Shown: piece by piece, positions 6,190 to 19,253 of the stretch
How positions within the stretch are numbered: the stretch's first letter is position 1
How the letters are laid out: every line of letters begins with the position of its first letter
From: a virus
DNA length: 21,543 nt
IMG/VR virus record: IMGVR_UViG_3300047195_000395
Coordinates: 1-21,543 of that record
Direction: 5' to 3' (one strand)
Program-made: the position numbers and the translations under genes
The notes under the pieces: model-generated
The model's database searches: none
The model's input: only the letters and a program-made list of their open reading frames with translations
Told to the model about the DNA's origin: nothing

Positions 6190-6201
6190 TATATTTATAG
6201 T
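6190..6201 (+). promoter_or_regulatory. Putative phage promoter motif, copy 3
   Basis: TATATTTATAGT differs from copy 1 only in the first base. It lies between the sheath terminator and the tail tube gene and ends 24 bases before the ATG at 6226. A strong terminator immediately upstream makes a promoter in this short gap necessary, which supports the motif. Confidence 0.6.
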
Positions 6202-6225: not shown

Positions 6226-6714
6226 ATGGCAAACCTAGTATCAGAACAAGAGCTGTTCTTTACAGCATTTGAACCAAAAATGAAGAATCGTTTCATCCTG
6301 TATATGGATGGAATTCCTTCATATCTTGTAAATAAAGTATCTCGCCCCAAATTAACACAAGAAGCAAAGGCGCTTGATCATATCAATCTACAACGATATG
6401 TCAAGGGAAAAAGTAAATGGGGTACAATGTCATTAACGTTGTACGATCCAATTGTCCCCTCTGGCGCTCAAGCAGTCATGGAATGGGTCCGTCTTCACCA
6501 TGAATCGGTCACCGGTCGTGACGGATATCTTGAATTCTACAAGAAAGATTTAACCCTCAACGTCCTCGGACCTGTGGGCGATAAAGTAGAAGAATGGATT
6601 ATTAAGGGCGCGCAGATTACGGATGCAACCTTCGGTGATATGGCATGGAGTGACGATGCGCAGTTGGAAATCACATTAACCATCCAACCCGACTATTGTG
6701 TGCTCAATTTTTGA
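6226..6714 (+). CDS. 19: Tail tube protein gp19-like
   Basis: This 162-aa protein is about the size of T4 gp19 (163 aa), the subunit of the inner tail tube that stacks as hexameric rings under the sheath. Typical segments are KNRFILYMDGIPSYLV (about 20-35), followed by the Lys-rich VSRPKL, then GTMSLTLYDPIVPSGAQAVMEWVRLHHES (about 66-95), GYLEFYKKDLTLNVLGP and the closing strand QLEITLTIQPDYCVLNF. The VMEW and LxPDYCVL elements are common in T4-type tubes. CGGAG upstream provides the ribosome-binding site. The gene has its own promoter-like motif after the sheath terminator, allowing expression separate from the sheath. A selfish nuclease gene follows where T4 would have the portal gene. Confidence 0.93.
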   Translation: MANLVSEQELFFTAFEPKMKNRFILYMDGIPSYLVNKVSRPKLTQEAKALDHINLQRYVKGKSKWGTMSLTLYDPIVPSGAQAVMEWVRLHHESVTGRDGYLEFYKKDLTLNVLGPVGDKVEEWIIKGAQITDATFGDMAWSDDAQLEITLTIQPDYCVLNF

Positions 6715-6768
6715 TTATATGGTATTTTTTATAGTATTCAACACGAAATAATCAAATTGAAGTTTTAG

Positions 6769-6813
6769 AATTTCTCCGTGATATATATAGTAAACGTATA
6801 TCACGGAGAAATT
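6769..6813 (+). promoter_or_regulatory. Perfect 17-bp hairpin sequestering the nuclease ribosome-binding site
   Basis: Bases 6769-6785 (AATTTCTCCGTGATATA) are the exact reverse complement of 6797-6813, with an 11-base loop. The right arm contains GGAG (6805-6808), the ribosome-binding site for the ATG at 6817, so read-through RNA from the tube gene would hide it. The stem is followed by a T-run (6812-6816), so the hairpin may also act as a terminator for the tube transcript. A promoter-like motif sits across the left arm and loop. Confidence 0.85.
6780..6791 (+). promoter_or_regulatory. Putative phage promoter motif, copy 4, inside the hairpin
   Basis: GATATATATAGT differs from copy 1 by one base and ends 25 bases before the ATG at 6817, the same spacing as copies 1, 3 and 5. 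A transcript starting a few bases downstream would lack the left hairpin arm and leave the ribosome-binding site free. Because the region is AT-rich, part of the match could be chance. Confidence 0.5.
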
Positions 6814-6816
6814 TTT

Positions 6817-7686
6817 ATGTTTAAGTGCCCAAGATGCAATGAAGAACATCTATCTTATAATTCATTGTCAAAACACACACGAATTACTTATAAATTAAGC
6901 GGCGAACAATTATATCGTGAATATTATAATATAAAAGAAATACCTACGTGTAAGTGTGGTTGTGGCATCCCTACAAAGTGGCGTATTGACCGTGGGTATG
7001 GTGAATATGTTGCTGGGCACAACGCAAGAATGAGCAATCCTATGGCAGGTAAAACGCACTCGGAAATAGCCAAGCAAAATATATCACAAAAACGTAAAGA
7101 AAAATTTGCTAACGGCGAGTATAATTTTATTAATTCAGAAAAATGGTCAACCGCTCAGAAAGAAGTTTGGAACCGCATTGGATATAAAGAAAAAATGAAA
7201 GAAGCTAGGGAAAATTCAGGTTGGCGCAAAAAATTATCTTCTGCACACAAAGGTGAAAAAAATTATTTTTACGGCAAAAAAAGACCGGAACACAGTAAAC
7301 TCATGAAAACTCCAGAAATGATGGAAAAGATATTTGCTAAACGTAGTATGACTGATATTGAACAGTTGATGGTGACTATGCTTGAGCAAATAAACGTTCC
7401 ACATCATTCACAGTTTTTTATCAAACACAATGATGATACCTACGCCTACGATTTCAAACTCAAAGAGTTGCCAATTTTAATTGAAGTGGATGGCGATTAC
7501 TGGCACGGTGGTCCTGGCACAAACAAACACGTTCCATTCGTTACAGAAGTACAGGATAACGATAATATCAAAGATGTCGTTGCCGAACAACACGGTTATA
7601 CGGTATTACGCTTTTGGGGCAGTGATGTTAAATCACGCCCCTTCTGGGTCATCCAACAAATATTATCATCTATATCCCCGACATAA
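6817..7686 (+). CDS. Putative homing endonuclease: zinc finger, NUMOD3 repeats, Vsr/DUF559-like nuclease domain
   Basis: This 289-aa protein is a probable selfish DNA endonuclease. The N-terminus has two likely zinc-binding clusters, CPRC (4-7) with H11/H20, and CKCGC (45-49). NUMOD3-like DNA-binding repeats follow (NPMAGKTHSEIAKQNIS, about 74-90; KNYFYGKKRPEHSK, about 148-161). The C-terminal domain (about 180-289) has the pattern of a PD-(D/E)XK-type Vsr/DUF559 nuclease: YDF with D212, then IEVDGDYWHG with E223, D225, W229 and H230, and finally GYTVLRFWGSDV. An upstream in-frame ATG at 6778 exists, but it lies inside the hairpin and has no ribosome-binding site. The ATG at 6817 has GGAG eight bases upstream and begins with the zinc finger. 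The gene is AT-rich like the GIY-YIG gene and unlike the tube gene beside it. Confidence 0.85.
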   Translation: MFKCPRCNEEHLSYNSLSKHTRITYKLSGEQLYREYYNIKEIPTCKCGCGIPTKWRIDRGYGEYVAGHNARMSNPMAGKTHSEIAKQNISQKRKEKFANGEYNFINSEKWSTAQKEVWNRIGYKEKMKEARENSGWRKKLSSAHKGEKNYFYGKKRPEHSKLMKTPEMMEKIFAKRSMTDIEQLMVTMLEQINVPHHSQFFIKHNDDTYAYDFKLKELPILIEVDGDYWHGGPGTNKHVPFVTEVQDNDNIKDVVAEQHGYTVLRFWGSDVKSRPFWVIQQILSSISPT

Positions 7687-7755
7687 AGTTATAAATTGCG
7701 GTGTGGAGATTTTGTATATAAAGTCATATAAAAACACTCTATTAAGACACTTTTT

Positions 7756-7767
7756 GATATTTATACT
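7756..7767 (+). promoter_or_regulatory. Putative phage promoter motif, copy 5
   Basis: GATATTTATACT differs from copy 1 at one base and ends 26 bases before the ATG at 7794. It is the only promoter candidate seen for the small BppU-like gene and the three fibre/spike genes behind it. Confidence 0.55.
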
Positions 7768-7793: not shown

Positions 7794-8135
7794 ATGGCAG
7801 ATATTACCGATTTTCAAATTGGTCAAGGTGAAACATTCAAAGTTATGGTACAATTACTGAATCAAAGTAATAATAATATCCCATTGGACATAACAGACTA
7901 TACACTTACCGGCCAACTTCGTGAAAATTATACTACCGACGAACTTGCCGCTGACTTTACATTTGAAAAACTACAACCGTATCCCAGTGGAGCAGTGTTC
8001 ATTCAATTGCCCGCCGACACAACAGCAACGCTATCGCAAAGAAAATATGTATATGATATCACCCTCACCAGTGGATCAATCACTCGTAGAATTCTAGAAG
8101 GTGGATTAACGGTCAGACCCGCTGTAACGAGATAA
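7794..8135 (+). CDS. Small BppU-like structural protein ahead of the fibres
   Basis: This 113-aa protein resembles the BppU N-terminal (Ig-like) type of baseplate or fibre-associated domain. It begins with FQIGQGETFKVMVQLLNQ, continues with PLDITDYTLTGQLRENY (about 32-48) and ADFTFEKL, and ends in beta-strand-rich YVYDITLTSGSITRRILEGGLTVRP (about 82-107). The 'G-hydrophobic-LR' and 'YxYDI..T.G....L.G.l.V.P' pattern is typical of these small modules. It may link the fibres to the tail or be a small decoration; the sequence does not decide. It has its own promoter-like motif. Stop TAA-TAG is followed by the ATG of the first fibre three bases after TAA, suggesting coupling. Confidence 0.72.
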   Translation: MADITDFQIGQGETFKVMVQLLNQSNNNIPLDITDYTLTGQLRENYTTDELAADFTFEKLQPYPSGAVFIQLPADTTATLSQRKYVYDITLTSGSITRRILEGGLTVRPAVTR

Positions 8136-8138
8136 TAG

Positions 8139-11100
8139 ATGAGCGAAATAAAACTGGACATACCAAATTTATTGGTGGTAGTGGATAAAGGCGATCAATA
8201 TAATGTAAAACTGACCCCAGCATTAACCGTAACGTCGCAAACTGCTGGTACATTTTTTAAATATGCAGATTATGCAAATCTTGCAGGGCTTGCCACTTTA
8301 GCAACTACGGCATCTTATGCATTGGCTTCTGCGGGTACTATTACCGATGCTATTAATGCACAGACCGCCAGTACCGTATTGGGTGGTACACAATATTACC
8401 TTCCATTGTGGAGTAGTGCCACCACACTAACGTCCAGTTTAATATATCAAACCGGATCGAGTATACTCATTGGGTCAACCACACAACATACTCCAGAAGC
8501 ACCTGACGCGCTTGGTATATATGCGGGAGTAACTGATTCCTATAATCTACTGTCTGCGCACGGATCTATTGATAATTATTTACAATTAAATGTCAAGAAT
8601 TTTAGTACGGGAATAACGGCATCCGCAGATATCGTTGCATATAATGATAGTGATGTATTCCTCGACATGGGGGTGAATTCCAGTACGTATGACTTTGGTG
8701 GTATTGGTGGGCCAAACGATGCGTATTTCTTTGCAAGTTCGGTTGCGAGCGGTGAAGGCGATTTATTAATTGGTAATACCTCGCCAAATAAACGGATTAT
8801 CTTATTCACCGGCGGGGGTGACGCAGATGCAAACGCCCGAGTATATATCAATCCAGTTGGCGTCGTCGGTATTAATACCACACAATACAATGCAGTTCAA
8901 CCAGAAGCACTGACCGTCCGTGCATTAACTAACACCTATAATTTGATTAAGGCATCATCAAATATCAATAATTATAGTCAGATTGTTATGCAAAATGAAG
9001 CCCCTGGTACCAACGCTTCTTCTGATATCGTCGCCGCTGCAGATAATAGTACGGAAACGGTTAATTATATTGACATGGGTGTCAACAGTAGTGCGTTTAA
9101 TACGGGGTACGTCGGTGACGCCAACGATGCATACCTCTACTCCACGGCAAAACATTTACATATCGGTAACGTCTCCAATGAATATGTGGCATTTTTTGCC
9201 GGTGGTAGTGACGTAGACGTACATAATAAGTTTGTAATATCCCCGAACAATCAACACAGCATGACGGGATCGTTGACGTTGACGGGCACTCTTACAACAC
9301 TTGCGGGTACCATTAATAATATAACTGCCTCCTATGCAATGACGGCAAGTTATGTGTCTGGAGCAGCAAGTACATGGGACACAATTGCAAACAAACCATC
9401 GGGATTAGTATCCAGTTCTTCACAGATCAATACGGGATCGTTTAGTGGATCATTTACTGGTACATTAACGGGTACGGGTAGTTGGGCAGTTTCTGCGTCA
9501 CGGGCAACTACGGCATCGTTTGCAACTACCGCGTCGTATGTAGATTATACCAATGTGGCAAACAAACCTACGTTGATATCCAGTTCAACTCAAATTAATA
9601 CAGGATCATTTAGCGGATCATTTACAGGTACGTTTATTGGGACGGCAAGTGTCGCAAGTACGGCAGTAAGTGCATCATATGTATCAATATCGGGACTTCC
9701 TGTAGGAACAGTCTCCAGTTCTACGCAAGTCTCATATACAAGTATATCTAATGTTCCCGCTAATATCGTCAGTAGTTCTGCCCAAGTTACAGCACTGCTG
9801 CCAACCGGAGCGGTATCGAGCTCGGCGCAAATTAATACCGGTTCGTTTACGGGATCGTTTATAGGTACACATTCTGGTTCAACTTTTGGTACCGCAAGTT
9901 GGGCGTCTAATGTAATCAGTGCATCATATATCTCCCCGTCAGGACTGCCCTCAGGAGTAGTCTCCAGTTCGTCACAAGTCTCGTATACGGGACTCAGTAA
10001 TATCCCGACAGGTATAGTGTCCAGTTCTACTCAAGCAAGTACATGGACCGTTGCTACATCATCAATTGCCACGTCCGCATCTTACGCATTAACGGCAAGT
10101 TATGTAGCAGGAGCAGTTGCAGATTGGAATACATTAGCCAATAAACCAGCTGGGTTAGTATCAAGTTCTACACAAATTAATACGGGATCATTTAGTGGAT
10201 CATTTACAGGAAATTTTATCGGTACGAGTAGTTGGGCCAGTAATGTAATATCCAGTTCATTTGCTACTACTGCTTCTGCGGCCACGTCCATCACGTTTAC
10301 CCCAGCATCAGCGTCATTTGCAACCACAGCAAGTTATGCATTAAATGCTAGTGGTGGTACGGGAACCGGATTTCCATTCAGTGGATCAGCAATTATTACG
10401 GGATCGTTGTTAGTATCGCAGAGTGGAGTAAATGTTACAGGGTCGGTAAATGTATTGGGAAATATATCATCCACCGCAATAATTGCAACTACGATTACTG
10501 CAAGTAATGGAATTTCAACGTCAATCTCAGCATCAAATATTACCAATGGTATACCAACATCGAATGCATGGCAAACAAGTTTAAACGGATCATATTTTAA
10601 TAACTTTACATCCAACACAAATGTGTCAGAAATACTACGATTTGTTGCGGGACTATTGTCAGCATCAGCGCCAGATGCAGCTCCAAATACCAAAACGTTT
10701 AGTACCGTTACGGCAAACCAAGTTAATGCAACCACGGGTACAGTAACAGTAGGAAATGTTCCACAAGCTAGTACAAATGCAACAATTAACTATCTAAATT
10801 CCAGAGGATTTGCAACGGTTGGTAGTGCAATATTTGCAGGAATTAGTCCCATTTATACTGCAACTAATTATGGATATACCTATACATCGGTTGCCGCAGG
10901 AACAACCACTGTATCATCGTCAGTCGATGCACAATTGTTTGGTTTGGGACAACTATCATCCGGAACTCCCACCAATTTTAACGTATCGGGATCATTCACG
11001 TTTAAATTCAAAGATAATAGTACGAAAACCGACACCGCAACATCCAGTTCGGGTCAAATTATTACACAAACTGGTGCTGGAACAACTAATGGTGTAACCT

Positions 11101-12518
11101 TAGCAAAAATTAATACAGTAAATTCCGCAGTCATTCCCGCAGCATATCAAGATGGAAAGTTTGCGGCAGCGTTTGCACCGTCTCTATATACAGGAAGTGC
11201 AACCACGGTGAGTAGTAGTGGATATGTACACATTTCTGCATCTATTTCCATCGCAAGTGGGTCGGGATTATACAATACACCCATTACAAGTAGTAATGAA
11301 ATATTCTGGGCACCACTAGCAACCATATCCGCCAATATACCCGCACAAACTCCAACGGTAACGGGTTCTATGGCCGTATTAACCGCGACCTCACGGTCAT
11401 TGAGTGGTGCACCATACCTAAGTGGGTCAACGTATAGTCTCTCGGGGTCGGTGTCGGGTGCATTCAACCCGTTGTATTTTGTGGGAAATATTACGACCAC
11501 CGCAAATTCTGGGATCGGACTATCGGGAACTACGACAGTTACTACAAACGCCGCCGGAGTAGCTACTGCAAATGCGGTATATGATTCTACTGGAGTTACT
11601 GCTCGCGCAACATCAACCGTTCCTTTTGAAACCGATGTCATAAAAGTTAATCAGTTAGTTACATTTGCCGCAAGTACAAATACAAATATTGCACAATCTA
11701 GTATAACACCCACAACATTTACGATAACAACGAGTGGATTAAATAAAGCCGGAACCGCAACTACCAGTGTACAAACGGTAAACTATCATACCGCAGGAAC
11801 ATTTGGTCAGCCTGTATCAAGCGGTTCAATGGCGTATTGGGGAAGAAATCAAGGAACAGATACTTCCCCCAGCGGGTCAAGTACAACGGTAACGGAAGCA
11901 TTCTTAGGGGAAAATAATCGTATCCAATTAACTGATAGTGTACTATCCTTCACAGGAACCGCATGGAACACTGGGTCGGTGTTTTATAACTTGGGATCAA
12001 AGGATTTACAAGTAAAACCAGGATATTTAGTGACGCCGGGTGGTACAAACGGATATTGGATAACCAACCCAAGTTCGGCAAGTACATACAAATATTATAT
12101 ACGAAGATTCCAGGTATCTCCCGCATCAACAAAAACAACTATGACATTAAATTTGGGAGTTACATTATTAGATTGGGAATCTACATCGGCGGGAGTAGCA
12201 GCATTAATTTTATTTGAATCGTCAAACTCCACCACGCCAAATGTTACTGCAGGAAGAGCACGATTCTATGATCCTACCCAAACAACAGCACAATCTGCAT
12301 TCACCGTTGCCGCAAACACCGATGGAACGAACCCATTTGGGGCTAGCATTGATATATATGATAATAGTAATGGTGGCAGCGTCGCCTCAAATGTCTATAC
12401 AGTCGGCATCTACAACCCAGCCGGTATGATTTTGAATAGTACATATGATGAAATATATGTATTAGTTAGATATAACGGCGATCCAACTCCAATAACAAGT
12501 ATGACAGTAACATGGTAA
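8139..12518 (+). CDS. Giant tail fibre protein 1 (repetitive shaft)
   Basis: This 1459-aa fibre probably mediates adsorption. The N-terminus (about 1-60) is followed by two related modules of about 115 residues (about 120-240 and 254-367), each with 'DMGVNSS', '.NDAY.', an IGN turn and a Gly-Gly/Asp 'GG.D.D' patch. A Ser/Thr/Gly/Ala shaft follows (about 370-740). It has four copies of SS(S/A)(S/T)QINTGSF.GSF.G, SASYA-type spacers and NKP turns, likely a trimeric beta shaft. Residues about 745-1220 are beta-rich with less regular repeats, and about 1230-1459 form a distinct C-terminal domain (KPGYLVTPGGTNGYW, YKYYIRRFQVSP, ending MTVTW) that could be the receptor-binding tip. No S74 peptidase or chaperone signature was recognised. 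It shares shaft modules with the next gene. A long antisense open frame on its other strand is a codon-bias artefact. Confidence 0.88.
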   Translation: MSEIKLDIPNLLVVVDKGDQYNVKLTPALTVTSQTAGTFFKYADYANLAGLATLATTASYALASAGTITDAINAQTASTVLGGTQYYLPLWSSATTLTSSLIYQTGSSILIGSTTQHTPEAPDALGIYAGVTDSYNLLSAHGSIDNYLQLNVKNFSTGITASADIVAYNDSDVFLDMGVNSSTYDFGGIGGPNDAYFFASSVASGEGDLLIGNTSPNKRIILFTGGGDADANARVYINPVGVVGINTTQYNAVQPEALTVRALTNTYNLIKASSNINNYSQIVMQNEAPGTNASSDIVAAADNSTETVNYIDMGVNSSAFNTGYVGDANDAYLYSTAKHLHIGNVSNEYVAFFAGGSDVDVHNKFVISPNNQHSMTGSLTLTGTLTTLAGTINNITASYAMTASYVSGAASTWDTIANKPSGLVSSSSQINTGSFSGSFTGTLTGTGSWAVSASRATTASFATTASYVDYTNVANKPTLISSSTQINTGSFSGSFTGTFIGTASVASTAVSASYVSISGLPVGTVSSSTQVSYTSISNVPANIVSSSAQVTALLPTGAVSSSAQINTGSFTGSFIGTHSGSTFGTASWASNVISASYISPSGLPSGVVSSSSQVSYTGLSNIPTGIVSSSTQASTWTVATSSIATSASYALTASYVAGAVADWNTLANKPAGLVSSSTQINTGSFSGSFTGNFIGTSSWASNVISSSFATTASAATSITFTPASASFATTASYALNASGGTGTGFPFSGSAIITGSLLVSQSGVNVTGSVNVLGNISSTAIIATTITASNGISTSISASNITNGIPTSNAWQTSLNGSYFNNFTSNTNVSEILRFVAGLLSASAPDAAPNTKTFSTVTANQVNATTGTVTVGNVPQASTNATINYLNSRGFATVGSAIFAGISPIYTATNYGYTYTSVAAGTTTVSSSVDAQLFGLGQLSSGTPTNFNVSGSFTFKFKDNSTKTDTATSSSGQIITQTGAGTTNGVTLAKINTVNSAVIPAAYQDGKFAAAFAPSLYTGSATTVSSSGYVHISASISIASGSGLYNTPITSSNEIFWAPLATISANIPAQTPTVTGSMAVLTATSRSLSGAPYLSGSTYSLSGSVSGAFNPLYFVGNITTTANSGIGLSGTTTVTTNAAGVATANAVYDSTGVTARATSTVPFETDVIKVNQLVTFAASTNTNIAQSSITPTTFTITTSGLNKAGTATTSVQTVNYHTAGTFGQPVSSGSMAYWGRNQGTDTSPSGSSTTVTEAFLGENNRIQLTDSVLSFTGTAWNTGSVFYNLGSKDLQVKPGYLVTPGGTNGYWITNPSSASTYKYYIRRFQVSPASTKTTMTLNLGVTLLDWESTSAGVAALILFESSNSTTPNVTAGRARFYDPTQTTAQSAFTVAANTDGTNPFGASIDIYDNSNGGSVASNVYTVGIYNPAGMILNSTYDEIYVLVRYNGDPTPITSMTVTW
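9408..10208 (+). repeat. Shaft repeat array in fibre 1 (INTGSF module, four copies)
   Basis: The protein module SS(S/A)(S/T)QINTGSF(T/S)GSF recurs near bases 9410, 9580, 9803 and 10158, separated by SASYA/TTASYV spacers. Copies agree closely in protein but use different codons. Confidence 0.8.
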
Positions 12519-12557
12519 GTAAGATGACTATTCAGCACTCAATATCAAGAGAATATA

Positions 12558-15500
12558 ATGTCGATAGATAATACAAAGAAATCTGGACGGCTACTTCAAA
12601 GTAGACGATATACACATGATACACTTTCGGATTTCCAAGAAGCGTTTACATCCACATTGGATATTAATGCGGGTGATATTTACATTGACCAATCATTAAT
12701 ACCCACCAGTAGCCTACCATTCAGCGGTAGTGGTCAGCATTTAGCCACGTATTCGGGCAGTCTGAAATATTATTATCGACAAGCATTAACCAAATCAGAC
12801 TTAAATAACGAAGTCTGGTTTTTTCTCGTACCCTCTGCGTCATCGGCGGGCATTGGGGCACAAATAATTACTGGTAGTCAACAAACTAATTTCATTTCAC
12901 CTAAATATGCGGCACCAACCGTATTCAATAATACAGAAGGTACTCCCCCTGGATATGGGGTGGCAGTGTATGTATCTACCAATCCAACAACACCGGCAGC
13001 AGGTGATATTTACTCCACTGCTAATTACGCATTTGATTATAAGACCGGCGTATTGCAATTTAGTTCATCCGCAGTAGCACCAACTGCGGGGCAATATGTA
13101 TATATGTCCGCATATCAATATATTGGACGAACCTTAAGTTCCATAACCACACCAACTGGCGTAGTGTCTGCGTCATATGCACTTACGGCAAGCTACGTGT
13201 CTGGTGGAGCCGCAGATTGGAATACCTTGGCTAACAAACCCGCGGGGATAGTCTCCAGTTCTACTCAAATTAATACGGGGTCGTTTAGTGGGTCATTCAT
13301 CGGATCATTAACGGGCACTGGAAGTTGGGCGGTGTCTGCGTCCTATGTACTTCCAACCGGATTGCCGAATGGGATCGTATCTAGTTCTATACAGGTTACT
13401 ACCTTCTTACCAACCGGCGTGGTTTCTAGTTCTACGCAAATCAACACCGGTTCATTTACAGGATCATTTACAGGTACACTAATCGGCACTGGTAGTTGGG
13501 CTACTTCCGCATCATATGCAATTACCTCTTCATTAGCAATTAATAACATAGTAACAGCTAGTGTATCTAATACCACAATTACTTTTACAAAAGGTGACAA
13601 TACTCAATTTAGTGTTACGGTTGCGCAGTCTGGATCAGTGTCCACCGCATCATATGCAACATTGGCAGCAAGTGCATTTACCGCATCGTATGTAGATTAT
13701 CCGAACATTGCTAATAAACCCACGTTGATATCTAGTTCAACCCAAATCAATACGGGATCGTTTACTGGGTCATTTACGGGTACATTAACAGGAACCGGCA
13801 GTTGGGCAACTAACGCTATTTCTAGTTCATTTGCAACCACTGCTTCTGCAGCAACGTCCATTACCTTTACACCGACCACTGCTTCATTTGCCACTACGGC
13901 ATCTTATGCATTAAATGCAATTGCGACACTTCCTAGTGGACTTATTTCAAGTTCCGCGCAGGTTACCGCAAGTTTGGTGGGCACAACCATCAATCCCTCA
14001 ATCGTATCAGCAAGTACCGTGAGTGCGTCTGCATTACACGTTACTACATTGGCTACCGTTAAGGGTCCGTTAGAATTACAAAAGACTTCTACACCTTCTC
14101 CGATTAATGCAAATTCGGCATATTGGTTTGTGAGTGGAGCAAATAATAATTTTGGACAAGATTTATATTATACCCACAATGGTGATACCAACCGTATGGA
14201 TTGGTTTGAAGGAATGTTGGGGTCTAGTCTACTCTATGGCGGCATCGTCAGTTGGAGTGCGGCAAACATATACGTGTCCAGTGGATCAGGGTTAATTGTC
14301 AATCATAATGTATCCACGGGGTCGGAAGCATCACCGACAATTACCTATATACAATGGCCTAGCCAATCCGCTGCAATTTCTGGTATTAGTACACGGCAAG
14401 TTACCTATCTGTATATTGATACCACGGGCACGATACAACAACAAACAACTCCATTTACCCCCGAGCAATATTATCAATATATTCCCTTGGGAGCCGTTGG
14501 ACATTTTGATTATGCAAATGTTACGGCATTTGGTGGAAGCGTTACTACCCATTATAATCAAATTCAACAAACGAACACCTTTATTGATGCATTTGGACCA
14601 TTAAAATTAAGTGGATATACCATTACCGCACAACCATCATCATTACGATTAAGTGTTGGGTTAGGTAAGGGATTTATCCACGGGGGATTCTATAAGCAAA
14701 ATCCGAAACTTCCATCGGTAATTGATACTACTGCCGTAGTAACGGCAAGTATGGCACGGGTATATCGGTCTGGGTCAAATGGTAATATAAAATTTGATAC
14801 CAATGGGGGAGCAATGTATACCGTTACAGACCCGTCATTATATGATAATGGGACCGGTATATTAGCAGCAGTGGGAAATTCCGACTGGACCATTCAACGA
14901 GTATTTACTGATCCCGTAACCAATACGTTGTATGTATACTATGGTCAAAATAAATATGATACATATTTAAATGCAGTTGCTGCCGTCAACACGGACCCCT
15001 TTACGGAAGGTGTTGCAACTCAAGAATTTACAATATTTGCAGGATATATAATTGCAAAAGGCAATGAAACTAGTTTGGCATCTGCCGACTCCATGGTTGC
15101 TCAAGCAGGATTATTTCGAAATACTTCGGGCGCTAGTACGGGTGCAGGGGCAGCAACTACGGCATTAGATCAACTCACCGACGTTTCCATTATTTCTCCA
15201 AGTAATGGGCAAGCATTGGTATATAATGCAGGTGTCTGGAGTAATGCAACCGTTTCGACTTCTTCGTTTGCTACAACGGCATCGTATGTAACCTATGCTA
15301 ATGTGGCAAATAAACCCACGTTGGTGTCCAGTTCAACCCAAATTAATACGGGATCATTTACTGGATCGTTTATCGGTATATTCAGTGGGTCCACCTTTGG
15401 TACCGCGAGTTGGGCCAGTAATGCAACGTCTGCGTCGTTTGCCACCACTGCATCAGCAGCAACGTCTATCACATTTACTCCATCAACAGCATCATTTGCT

Positions 15501-18500
15501 ACAACGGCATCGTATGCAGTCTCTGCATCCGTTGCAAATCAATTTGATGGGTATGTGAACTTCCCAACAGGGCTAGATGTTACCGGATCGTTCGTGGTCA
15601 CGGGATCGGCAAGTATCACCGGATCGGTATCTGCAACGGCTGGATTTACGGGATCGTTATTCGGGAGTAGTAGTTACGCATTAAGTGCATCTTACGCACC
15701 GGGTTCAAGCGCAACGTTCCCCTACACGGGTAATGCGGTCATTAGTGGCTCACTCAATACGTCGGGCAGTATTACAGCGTCCGCAGGATTTAGTGGAACA
15801 TTATTTGGTACGGCATCATTTGCCACTACCACCGTCACTGCTTCATACTTCTCAGGAAGTGTGTCATTCCCCAATGGATTAATTATCACAGGATCGTTGG
15901 TGGCAACGTCGGTGTCAGCGTCAATTATTACTTCGTCCAATATAAATTTGGTTGGATTGGCTGATACCATAAATGTAAATAAAGTTCTCGTTCTTGAAAC
16001 AGCAACCGGAAAAATCTTTACGACCTCAAGTGTTGGAACCGGCGGTGGTTCTGGTAATGGATTCCCGTTCGTGGGAACTGCCTTAATTACGGGATCATTA
16101 ATTGTATCGAGTAGTGGTATTAATGTGATTGGGGCGGGTATTACGGGATCACTGTCTGGAAGCGCAACCTCGGCAACATCCGCATCCTTTGCCACTACAT
16201 CAAGTTACGCAGTCTCTGCCTCCTATGCACCGGGTAGCAGTGCAACGTTCCCCTACACGGGTAATGCGGTCATTAGTGGCTCACTCAATACGTCGGGCAG
16301 TATTACAGCATCCGCAGGATTTAGTGGAACATTATTTGGTACTGCATCGTATGCAAATTCTTTCTCTGGATATATTAACTTTCCAACCGGATTAGATGTC
16401 ACGGGATCATTGACCGTTAGCGGATCGGCGACTATAACGGGATCAATTTCTGCAACCGCTGGATTTACGGGGTCGCTGTTCGGGAGTAGTAGTTACGCAC
16501 TCAGTGCATCTTACGCACCGGGTTCAAGCGCAACGTTCCCATATACGGGTAATGCGGTCATTAGTGGCTCACTCAATACGTCGGGCAGTATTACAGCATC
16601 CGCAGGATTTAGTGGAACATTATTTGGCACCGCGTCGTATGCAACGTCAGCAGCCACCGCATCATATTTCTCGGGCAGTATTAGTTTCCCTAATGGGTTA
16701 ACTATGACTGGTTCACTCAACGTTTCGGGTAGTATCACCGCATCCGCAGGATTTAGTGGAACATTGTTCGGTAGTAGCAGTTACGCAACCACATCAAGTT
16801 ACGCACTAAGCGCTTCCTACGCACCTGGTGGTAGTGCAACGTTCCCCTACACGGGTGCAGCAGTTATTACTGGGTCACTCACTATCACCGGCAGTGGTAT
16901 CAACGTTATTTCGGGCAGTGTTTCCGCATCAGCAGTAAGAATTAGTGGTCGAGCAGACACCGCATTAGTATTGACTGATGGTAATGGTAGTTCCATTATC
17001 GATACTATAGGAACATCTTTACGATTGCGTAGTCAAGGTGGCAACGGAATTTATACCAACGGTAGTGGGTGGTATCCCGAAGCAAATAATACACTAGAAT
17101 TGGGAGGTTCATTAGGTGGGCCGTCCGTGTGGAAATCTATTGCAGGAACGATAATTACCGCATCTATCATCAGCGCATCTTCAGGTATTACTGGTTCACT
17201 CTTTGGTAGTAGCAGTTACGCACTCTCTGCGTCCTACGCACCCGGTAGCAGTGCAACGTTCCCCTACACGGGGGACGCGGCTATCACGGGATCATTAACT
17301 ATATCAGGAAGTAGAAATGGTGGATTAATTATATCTGGTGCTAATACTTCTGCCTCGCTGTTGGTAACAAATGGTACCATAATTGGTGTTATAATTCCAA
17401 GTAATAATGCAAGTGCTTTGCGAATTGGTACAACTACCAATGCTGATGTTGGAATTATGGTTAATAATTCACAAGCATTTACATTTAATGCATCAATGTT
17501 ATATCCCGGCTCCCCGTATAATTTAGGAGGTCCGTCAAATAGATGGGGTGCACTAACTGTAAATAATATTTTCTCCAGTGGGTCTATTACGCATACGGGT
17601 TCACTCGATATATTGTCGGGTAGTATCACTGTAACCAACGGAGCAATAACAAGTTCACTCTTTGGTACCAGTAGTTGGGCAACCAATACAGTATCCAGTT
17701 CATTTGCCACCACGGCATCGTATGCATTAAACGCAACTGCAACATTACCCGCAGGAGTTGTCTCCAGTTCCACACAATTTACCTCACTAACTGCACCGTT
17801 TACTGGTTCCTTTACAGGGTCATTCAAGGGTGATGGTACAGGATTAACGGGGGTTACGGCAACCGCATTCCCATACAGTGGAAGTGCAGTTATTACGGGG
17901 TCATTAACAGTGACGGGTAGTAAAGACGGAGTAATTATTATCTCAGGGTCAGATTCCTCGGCATCATTGTTAGTATCAGCTGGAGGTTTGTTAGGTGGTA
18001 TCATTCCTACCGTTGGATATGGTAGTTCATTATCTATTGGTACACTGTCAAATCATAATGTGTCCATTAGAATAAATGGTGGATATTATTATACATTTTC
18101 TCCGACCGCACTTGCTCCCGCAGATAGTACATTTAATTTAGGAAGCAATGGTAATCGTTGGGGAACAGGATATTTCAACAATATCAATTCCACCGGTTCT
18201 ATTACGCATACGGGGTCGTTGAATATTCTGTCGGGCAGTATCAATGTAACCAACGGAGCAATAACCGCATCCAATGTCAATTTAGTAAATATATCCAATA
18301 CCACCAATGCAAATAGTGTATTAGTATTAGAAACTTCTACCGGAAAAATCTTTACCACCTCAAGTGTTGGGACGGGTGGTGGATCAACGTTCCCTTATAC
18401 GGGAAACGCCGTGATTACAGGATCATTGACAGTAACCGGAAGTATATTACTGAATTCAGGATCAAATCAGTCGCCGCAGTTGGCAATGACGAGTGATGGT

Positions 18501-19253
18501 GGTGGAGTAAAATTCAATGTAATTGCCACAGGTGGTTCTGATATATTAAATTTCTTTAATACTAACGTAGGCACAGTAACACTAGCTGGAAGCTATTTGG
18601 CACCATATGGAACTGGTGGTGGTGTATCATTAGGTACAAGTAACAATCGTTGGGGAACAGGATATTTCAACAATATCAATTCCACCGGTTCTATTACGCA
18701 TACGGGGTCATTGAATATCCTCTCCGGTAGTATCAATGTTACCAATGGCGGAATTACGAGTTCACTTTTCGGCACCGCAAGTTATGCAGTATCAGCCTCC
18801 TATGCCCCAGGCGGCAGTGCAACGTTCCCCTACACGGGCGCAGCAGTTATTAGTGGATCATTGACCATTACGGGCAGCGCGGGCTTAAATGTCACTGGAC
18901 CTGCAACGGTTGTTGGAGCATTTCAAGCAACCACCAAGAGTTTCAAAATTGACCATCAACGGTTGTTGGGCAAGAAACTCATCTACGGTGTTGTTGAAGC
19001 ACCAGAACATTCGGTCATGGTACGTGGTAAGTTGTCGGGTACCAATACCATCACACTTCCAGACGAATGGGAATGGTTGGTAGATCATGATAGTATCACG
19101 GTCCATCTGACCTCTATTGGTAGACATCAAGAATTATTTGTACAGGAAATATTATCTGATAGAATTATTATTGGTTCAGATATGACGATCAACTGTTTCT
19201 ATACGGTACAAGCAACACGTAAGGACGTTGATCCACTCGTCACGGTGGAATAA
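12558..19253 (+). CDS. Giant tail fibre protein 2 (2231 aa, repetitive shaft with globular insert)
   Basis: This 2231-aa fibre begins with a non-repetitive N-terminal domain (about 1-195: SGRLLQSRRYTHDTLSDFQ, NFISPKYAAP, PPGYGVAVYVS, VLQFSSSA, YQYIGRTL), probably for baseplate attachment. A first shaft (about 205-480) carries INTGSF modules. A less repetitive, probably globular segment (about 495-900) contains YYQYIPLGAVGHFDY, GKGFIHGGFYKQNP and LDQLTDVSIISPSNGQALVYNAGVW. A long second shaft (about 905-2115) follows, with repeated FPYTGxAxI(T/S)GSL, SASYAPG and NRWGTGYFNNI units; the NRWG-type units resemble those of other phage fibres. The last about 105 residues form a separate domain (KIDHQRLLGKKLIYG, EAPEHSVMVRGKL, EWEWLVDHDSITVHL, KDVDPLVTVE) that I recall at the ends of fibres from aquatic T4-like phages. 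A weak AAGAGA precedes the start. Confidence 0.9.
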   Translation: MSIDNTKKSGRLLQSRRYTHDTLSDFQEAFTSTLDINAGDIYIDQSLIPTSSLPFSGSGQHLATYSGSLKYYYRQALTKSDLNNEVWFFLVPSASSAGIGAQIITGSQQTNFISPKYAAPTVFNNTEGTPPGYGVAVYVSTNPTTPAAGDIYSTANYAFDYKTGVLQFSSSAVAPTAGQYVYMSAYQYIGRTLSSITTPTGVVSASYALTASYVSGGAADWNTLANKPAGIVSSSTQINTGSFSGSFIGSLTGTGSWAVSASYVLPTGLPNGIVSSSIQVTTFLPTGVVSSSTQINTGSFTGSFTGTLIGTGSWATSASYAITSSLAINNIVTASVSNTTITFTKGDNTQFSVTVAQSGSVSTASYATLAASAFTASYVDYPNIANKPTLISSSTQINTGSFTGSFTGTLTGTGSWATNAISSSFATTASAATSITFTPTTASFATTASYALNAIATLPSGLISSSAQVTASLVGTTINPSIVSASTVSASALHVTTLATVKGPLELQKTSTPSPINANSAYWFVSGANNNFGQDLYYTHNGDTNRMDWFEGMLGSSLLYGGIVSWSAANIYVSSGSGLIVNHNVSTGSEASPTITYIQWPSQSAAISGISTRQVTYLYIDTTGTIQQQTTPFTPEQYYQYIPLGAVGHFDYANVTAFGGSVTTHYNQIQQTNTFIDAFGPLKLSGYTITAQPSSLRLSVGLGKGFIHGGFYKQNPKLPSVIDTTAVVTASMARVYRSGSNGNIKFDTNGGAMYTVTDPSLYDNGTGILAAVGNSDWTIQRVFTDPVTNTLYVYYGQNKYDTYLNAVAAVNTDPFTEGVATQEFTIFAGYIIAKGNETSLASADSMVAQAGLFRNTSGASTGAGAATTALDQLTDVSIISPSNGQALVYNAGVWSNATVSTSSFATTASYVTYANVANKPTLVSSSTQINTGSFTGSFIGIFSGSTFGTASWASNATSASFATTASAATSITFTPSTASFATTASYAVSASVANQFDGYVNFPTGLDVTGSFVVTGSASITGSVSATAGFTGSLFGSSSYALSASYAPGSSATFPYTGNAVISGSLNTSGSITASAGFSGTLFGTASFATTTVTASYFSGSVSFPNGLIITGSLVATSVSASIITSSNINLVGLADTINVNKVLVLETATGKIFTTSSVGTGGGSGNGFPFVGTALITGSLIVSSSGINVIGAGITGSLSGSATSATSASFATTSSYAVSASYAPGSSATFPYTGNAVISGSLNTSGSITASAGFSGTLFGTASYANSFSGYINFPTGLDVTGSLTVSGSATITGSISATAGFTGSLFGSSSYALSASYAPGSSATFPYTGNAVISGSLNTSGSITASAGFSGTLFGTASYATSAATASYFSGSISFPNGLTMTGSLNVSGSITASAGFSGTLFGSSSYATTSSYALSASYAPGGSATFPYTGAAVITGSLTITGSGINVISGSVSASAVRISGRADTALVLTDGNGSSIIDTIGTSLRLRSQGGNGIYTNGSGWYPEANNTLELGGSLGGPSVWKSIAGTIITASIISASSGITGSLFGSSSYALSASYAPGSSATFPYTGDAAITGSLTISGSRNGGLIISGANTSASLLVTNGTIIGVIIPSNNASALRIGTTTNADVGIMVNNSQAFTFNASMLYPGSPYNLGGPSNRWGALTVNNIFSSGSITHTGSLDILSGSITVTNGAITSSLFGTSSWATNTVSSSFATTASYALNATATLPAGVVSSSTQFTSLTAPFTGSFTGSFKGDGTGLTGVTATAFPYSGSAVITGSLTVTGSKDGVIIISGSDSSASLLVSAGGLLGGIIPTVGYGSSLSIGTLSNHNVSIRINGGYYYTFSPTALAPADSTFNLGSNGNRWGTGYFNNINSTGSITHTGSLNILSGSINVTNGAITASNVNLVNISNTTNANSVLVLETSTGKIFTTSSVGTGGGSTFPYTGNAVITGSLTVTGSILLNSGSNQSPQLAMTSDGGGVKFNVIATGGSDILNFFNTNVGTVTLAGSYLAPYGTGGGVSLGTSNNRWGTGYFNNINSTGSITHTGSLNILSGSINVTNGGITSSLFGTASYAVSASYAPGGSATFPYTGAAVISGSLTITGSAGLNVTGPATVVGAFQATTKSFKIDHQRLLGKKLIYGVVEAPEHSVMVRGKLSGTNTITLPDEWEWLVDHDSITVHLTSIGRHQELFVQEILSDRIIIGSDMTINCFYTVQATRKDVDPLVTVE
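13250..13931 (+). repeat. Shaft repeat array 1 in fibre 2
   Basis: INTGSF modules lie near 13256, 13425-13478 and 13731-13784, followed by SFATTASAATSITFTP, which also occurs near 10258 in fibre 1 and near 15436. The copies at 13425 and 13731 encode the same 18 residues with 9 of 18 codons different. Confidence 0.82.
15662..15811 (+). repeat. Near-identical DNA repeat, copy A
   Basis: This 150-base block differs from 16481-16630 at about 6 positions, while the homologous sequence on both sides is much more diverged. Its last 101 bases (15711-15811) match 16242-16342 with one difference. It encodes GSSSYALSASYAPG and FPYTGNAVISGSLNTSG. Confidence 0.88.
16242..16342 (+). repeat. Near-identical DNA repeat, copy B (short)
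   Basis: This 101-base block matches 15711-15811 at all but one position and 16530-16630 at all but about three. The bases just upstream encode the same SASYAPG with different codons, so the near-identity starts abruptly. Confidence 0.88.
16481..16630 (+). repeat. Near-identical DNA repeat, copy C
   Basis: This is the partner of 15662-15811, exactly 819 bases (273 codons) downstream. The wider duplication starts near 16371 (GYINFPTGLDVTGS), but its first 110 bases differ from the A copy at about 27 positions. Confidence 0.88.
18153..18217 (+). repeat. 65-bp identical repeat, copy 1 (NRWGTGYFNNINSTGSITHTG)
   Basis: This 65-base run is identical to 18645-18709. Flanks on both sides encode related peptides but differ in codons. 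A more diverged relative lies near 17538 (NRWGALTVNNI). Confidence 0.9.
18645..18709 (+). repeat. 65-bp identical repeat, copy 2
   Basis: Identical to 18153-18217, 492 bases (164 codons) downstream, and in the same reading frame of fibre 2. Confidence 0.9.

Follow-up and report, generated by a model that had tools for sequence, protein, structure and literature searches.

The tail tube gene, the nuclease gene and the hairpin between them

The window, i.e. the whole 21.5-kb stretch of DNA analysed here, is the record of an uncultured virus with T4-like structural genes, among them those for the neck, the sheath and the tail tube. The tail tube gene (gp19-like, positions 6226-6714, + strand) matched the tail tube family phrog_4542 (E 4.6e-26) and, weakly, Pfam gp19; the nearest isolate by tube protein was Microcystis phage Mel-JY01 (65%). 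Downstream of it on the + strand, at 6817-7686, lies the gene for a free-standing Vsr-fold homing-type endonuclease with an N-terminal Cys/His finger, NUMOD3 motifs (Pfam, 1.7e-9) and a DUF559/Vsr-like C-terminus (DUF559, 1.2e-6). The structural model of this protein was poor as a whole (pLDDT 57); residues from about 180 onwards were mostly in the 80s, except for 227-244. When the predicted C-terminal domain was searched with Foldseek, the best structural match was the catalytic domain of I-Bth0305I (3r3p; E 3.5e-4, TM 0.73 by target), an EDxHD/Vsr-fold homing endonuclease, followed by 1vsr (E 8.8e-4). The fold thus confirmed the label "Vsr-like" given to the enzyme in a preliminary description of this DNA. 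Residues E223, D225, H230 and D249 are conserved. A search with the single nuclease sequence retrieved no relative among phage isolates or in IMG/VR; relatives were found with the tube gene and later with nuclease profiles. The named phages searched for a gp19-linked nuclease yielded partial matches only (at most 51% of the query), in Bacillus and other phages. Farther downstream, at 8139-19253, the window encodes two very long proteins of 1459 and 2231 aa that are rich in short repeats (SGSFTGSFTGT, TASYA) and are probably tail or fibre proteins.

A hairpin of about 50 bases is located between the tail tube gene and the nuclease gene. Its left arm (6769-6785, + strand) and right arm (6797-6813) are perfectly complementary, forming a 17-bp inverted repeat that ranks first among the inverted repeats of the window, and enclose a loop at 6786-6796. 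The Shine-Dalgarno sequence of the nuclease gene, GGAG at 6805-6808, is situated inside the right arm and is followed by AAA, by TTTTT at 6812-6816 and by the ATG at 6817. The perfect repeat, the GGAG in its right arm and the T-run had been described in the preliminary account and were confirmed, as was the occurrence of GATATATATAGT in the left arm and loop (6780-6791). The RNA folding that had been proposed as a check on the hairpin gave, for 6755-6819, a 20-bp stem (6767-6786 paired to 6796-6815) of -25.1 kcal/mol with z = -7.6, and none of 200 dinucleotide shuffles was equally stable; the longer stretch 6750-6850 gave z = -5.9. RNA begun at 6796 formed no hairpin in these predictions and its GGAG was unpaired. 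At the foot of the stem the TTTTT forms a terminator-like U-tract, which doubles as the spacer between the Shine-Dalgarno sequence and the ATG; five U residues directly 3' of a stem, here at a conserved terminator site (see below), are the arrangement of an intrinsic terminator. Rfam returned nothing relevant, the three sub-threshold chance matches including two miRNA models on the hairpin.

Promoter classes of the clade and the motif within the hairpin

Promoter classes were derived from an unbiased count of the 8-mers that precede genes in two large contigs from related phages (164 and 146 kb; G001, G002). The top 8-mer, TATTTATA, was strand-specific (12 vs 0 and 14 vs 1 in the two contigs), and sites of this type were mostly found 28-40 nt, usually about 35 nt, 5' of the ATG. 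The genes behind them encode the tube, neck, baseplate hub and other virion proteins, and TTGACA-N17-TATATT sites precede the uvsX, thymidylate synthase, ligase and primase genes. We take TATTTATA to represent the late class and the TTGACA type the early class, an assignment that rests on the kinds of genes served, not on timing measurements. Of the 46 late-type sites in these contigs, 28 were TATTTATA, six TATTTATT and four TATGTATA. This promoter class could serve as a handle on late transcription in an uncultured T4-related group.

In the window, late-type TATTTATA cores are located on the + strand 34 nt 5' of the ATG of the tube gene (6192-6199, PWM 14.9) and 36 nt 5' of the ATG of the next structural gene, at 7794 (7758-7765, PWM 16.2). 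The motif within the hairpin, TGATATATATAG (6779-6790), spans left arm and loop, and its core TATATATA (6782-6789) lies 35 nt 5' of the nuclease ATG. The earlier proposal of a promoter-like motif inside the hairpin stands as regards its presence at the distance usual in the clade. As to its identity, the T4 motif TATAAATA was rejected as the late motif, since the strand-specific motif of the clade is TATTTATA, of which the window site TATATATA is a variant. None of the 46 late-type contig sites has exactly the core TATATATA, which is off consensus, and the predicted hairpin promoter may be weak. With the motif 35 nt from the ATG, the putative promoter is placed such that its RNA would lack the left arm, and by analogy with -10-type promoters its spacing would put the RNA start at about 6795-6797.

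To guard against circularity, the two large contigs alone, to the exclusion of the window and of every nuclease locus, supplied a second promoter matrix. Under this independent matrix the score of the hairpin site dropped from 10.9 to 7.5, which is still uncommon (about 0.003-0.005 per 8-nt window). The corresponding sites of the other nuclease-bearing copies, each a variant of the same motif, scored 8.7 (L051), 13.6 (L011), 11.9 (L119) and 5.2 (L041), scores from 7.5 down to 5 having a chance of about 0.003-0.012 per 8-nt window. All five nuclease-bearing copies had the nested motif, 31-36 nt 5' of the ATG; in three nuclease-free hairpins (L026, L006 and L030) it was not recovered.

Exactly three GATATNTATA sites were detected in the window, all on the + strand: in the hairpin, before the gene at 7794 and before a gene at 273. 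The last of these (273-1037) is a second NUMOD3-bearing endonuclease-like gene, which precedes the neck gene and stands behind a TATTTATA promoter (core at 236). In contig G001 the counterpart of this promoter directly precedes the neck gene, which suggests that the insert has taken over the neck-gene promoter.

The hairpin in close and remote relatives

A search with the tube protein recovered 80 loci, most of which have no nuclease and carry a terminator-like hairpin with a T-run right behind the tube gene. Such hairpins were present in 37 of the 43 distinct regions counted, four of the 37 being nuclease hairpins, and this supports the earlier idea that the tube transcript may stop at the T-run. 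The nuclease was found in the window and in loci L041/L048, L011/L012, L051-L053 and L119. That close relatives either have or lack the nuclease at one and the same site agrees with homing. Just past the nuclease stop codon the sequence aligns with a nuclease-free relative from mid-terminator on (window 7699 with L002, L041 6333 with L028, L011 1920 with L025). In the window the segment concerned is 7699-7713 (+ strand), the right half of the native tube terminator, as near-identity with L002 begins at 7699. These alignments imply that the nuclease unit, together with the hairpin at its front, has replaced the left part of the native terminator, the native right arm remaining behind. L030, L034 and L035 have no nuclease but possess, about 70 nt past the tube stop codon, a left arm of the nuclease hairpin that is fused to an intact native terminator; L026, likewise nuclease-free, has the whole hairpin with its T-run, in which no promoter motif was recovered. 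These arms and this hairpin look like traces of lost nuclease copies. The nuclease of L041 (5567-6331) shares the hairpin and the N-terminal 136 residues with the window (76%), and its C-terminal half is shorter and diverged (40%), possibly as a result of a domain swap.

Stem covariation in related phages had also been put forward as a check. Across the five diverged nuclease-bearing copies 95.3% of stem cells were paired and six of the 17 stem pairs were changed on both sides. None of 500 shuffles matched this, and slid structures had 0-2 double-changed pairs; the alignment is small, and the unslid register is favoured by the definition of the pairs from the window. In the lower stem the sequence varies and complementarity is kept. 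Thus, the four diverged relatives maintain the stem by compensatory changes, and the alignment indicates that the hairpin is conserved much beyond chance. Fold, shuffles and covariation agree on a stable hairpin that pairs the nuclease Shine-Dalgarno sequence, as in I-TevI, segB and Aeh1 mobE. The comparison with relatives therefore backs the earlier claim that the ribosome-binding site is hidden.

Among 6533 distinct ORF starts of the clade loci, the combination of a hairpin over the start with a nested motif was found almost only on endonuclease genes. These were the window family, an enzyme encoded between sheath and tube (L002, L051), a second finger/NUMOD3 enzyme (L135) and GIY-YIG enzymes (L073 and, more weakly, L134); the nested motifs of L135 and L073 were strong (12.5 each under the independent matrix). 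The sheath-tube gene (L002:965-1892, L051:4030-4956, L178) is endonuclease-like and unrelated to the window nuclease; its ribosome-binding site lies in a hairpin that has a promoter-like motif and no U-tract. Its product had no Pfam match in L002 and L051, and the gene has replaced the sheath terminator that is present in nuclease-free relatives. The lack of a U-tract in L002 and L051 implies that termination is not essential to the design. Before homologues of the gene at 7794, late-type promoter motifs were also seen nested in terminator hairpins without any nuclease (L068:4723, L070, L074:5510 and L073:5503). This suggests that a promoter embedded in a terminator is a compact habit of the clade, to which the nuclease adds a ribosome-binding site.

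A profile of five nuclease sequences retrieved a further set of 80 loci, most of them at only 25-45% identity. At least 23 of 42 distinct remote nuclease starts have a strong hairpin that runs up to the start codon, as against none of 145 other ORFs of the same loci (Fisher P 3e-18, a statistic that ignores relatedness). The remaining 19 failed the strict hairpin test, about ten of them showing a sub-threshold hairpin by eye. A run of five or more T accompanied 21 of the 23 hairpins, and a promoter-like motif was found in 22, resembling TATTTATA, TACTTATA or TATGTATA in 14 and TAnnTTTG in 11, with some overlap; the antisense control gave four late-type and no TAnnTTTG-type motifs. TAnnTTTG with an upstream TTG resembles the Bacteroidetes promoter. 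In L238, L239, L250 and L252 TATAAT occurs just before the left arm, perhaps as a third promoter type. A tube-like C-terminus was encoded just upstream in 50 of 72 remote loci by a strict pattern and in about 65 by reading, and all six upstream genes tested matched the tail tube family phrog_4542. The layout thus recurs in remote relatives, which makes the earlier statement that it had "evolved here" too narrow. It is about as likely as not that these loci represent a family of Vsr-fold homing endonucleases that is associated with tail tube genes, widespread and so far undescribed, and whose three-in-one hairpin is constant in geometry across very different phages while carrying either TATTTATA-like or TAnnTTTG-like promoters. 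In that case the conserved design would be the hairpin as a valve, and the promoter a swappable part.

Proposed function and comparison with known systems

We propose, at a probability of roughly 0.7, that the hairpin is a composite element at the tube/nuclease junction, acting as a terminator, as a lock on the ribosome-binding site and as the seat of an embedded late-type promoter. This reading is built on observed features, namely the folding and covariation of the stem, the presence and position of the motif, the terminator history of the site and the recurrence in relatives; the conserved terminator site together with the terminal U-tract makes it probable that the three functions are united in one structure. 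The termination, RNA start and repression of translation that we infer would operate as a one-way valve. The tube transcript would end at the hairpin, in part at least: with only five T and an A/U-rich stem foot, termination may be partial. RNA that reads through would fold, and the right arm would lock the GGAG of the nuclease gene. From the putative late-type promoter TGATATATATA in left arm and loop, RNA would start at about 6795-6797; lacking the left arm, it would not fold, the GGAG would be exposed and the nuclease translated. Incoming transcription would thereby be stopped and its message silenced, and the enzyme would be made only from its own short, probably weak, late transcript.

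According to the preliminary description, the lock silences early RNA and so confines the nuclease to the late stage. In its strict form, such a timing switch of the I-TevI type would only hide the ribosome-binding site on read-through RNA of early or middle origin; the U-tract would be a spacer, and there would be no termination. This reading has the layout of I-TevI, segB and Aeh1 mobE in its favour (PMC2988022), as well as the sheath-tube endonuclease hairpin of L002 and L051, which manages without a U-tract. We nevertheless consider it unlikely. The tube gene is preceded by a late-type promoter of its own, the + strand of the 6.8 kb upstream yielded none of the TTGACA type, terminators occupy the site in most close relatives and the T-run is kept in nearly all remote hairpins. 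The promoter evidence suggests that the lock probably acts mainly against abundant late tube RNA, and dose control beside a late structural gene appears a more natural purpose than timing. Still less likely is a plain tube terminator whose right arm happens to serve as ribosome-binding site, with no internal promoter and the nuclease made from leaky read-through only. Terminators of the clade often end in GGAG and a T-run, so that a start codon just downstream gains a ribosome-binding site free, and the window motif is a non-consensus variant. This reading does not account for the constant position of the motif in the five nuclease loci and the failure to recover it in nuclease-free hairpins, for the strong motifs in the endonuclease hairpins of L135 and L073 or for the excess over the antisense control in the remote set.

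Two further readings leave the promoter or the RNA structure aside. A perfect palindrome could bind a dimer, and I-TevI binds an operator overlapping its late promoter as an autorepressor (PMC2988022); the hairpin might accordingly be a DNA-level operator bound by the nuclease or a repressor. We regard this as very improbable, as the lower stem changes its sequence yet stays complementary, which fits pairing and not a fixed binding sequence. Least probable of all is a processing site at which a host RNase cuts off the left arm and frees the ribosome-binding site, making a promoter unnecessary. The RNA of Aeh1 mobE is processed at an RNase E-like site (PMC2988022) and a 20-bp stem could be a substrate of RNase III, but processing would leave unexplained both the conserved promoter motif and the motifs of two promoter classes in the corresponding hairpins of other phages.

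If the composite reading holds, a selfish gene could live beside a structural gene without being over-expressed or disturbing its neighbour. One 50-base hairpin would retain the neighbour's terminator, silence read-through and supply the parasite's own promoter. The recurrence of this arrangement in many uncultured phages, with two promoter types, would provide a comparative test of the I-TevI/mobE idea outside T4.

The combination of a ribosome-site hairpin with an internal late promoter is already established for I-TevI, I-TevII, I-TevIII, segB, Aeh1 mobE and gene e. In T4 I-TevI (td intron), I-TevII and I-TevIII, as here, the ribosome-binding site of an endonuclease lies in a hairpin and promoter RNA lacks part of it, and in I-TevI what is locked is early RNA, made from early promoters (PMC2988022, PMC3014915). 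These are intron-encoded GIY-YIG or HNH enzymes within early or middle transcripts, whereas in the window a Vsr-fold enzyme stands free behind a late gene, with a putative promoter of the TATTTATA type and with lock and probable terminator in one hairpin. Aeh1 mobE and T4 segB also encode free-standing endonucleases, and both combine a hairpin over the ribosome-binding site with a late promoter, predicted in the case of segB; they differ in enzyme class (HNH and GIY-YIG) and site (nrd genes and tRNA region), and the review describes no terminator role for their hairpins (PMC2988022). Late promoters immediately upstream of T4 gene e (lysozyme) give RNA without the 5' part of an inhibitory hairpin, and the start region of soc is likewise listed as sequestered (PMC3014915); both are host-function genes of the phage, not mobile, and silence early read-through RNA. 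Intrinsic terminators are associated with the endonuclease genes mobE and segF of T4 (PMC2988022), where they lie inside the 5' coding region, whereas the probable terminator of the window reaches precisely to the start codon, with the ribosome-binding site inside it. The best structural match, I-Bth0305I, shares 19% identity with the nuclease over the domain, and the window family adds an N-terminal Cys/His finger and sits behind tail-tube genes. The apparent novelties are a lock merged with the neighbour's terminator, a promoter motif other than that of T4, a Vsr-fold family fixed behind tail-tube genes and a geometry that persists across promoter types.
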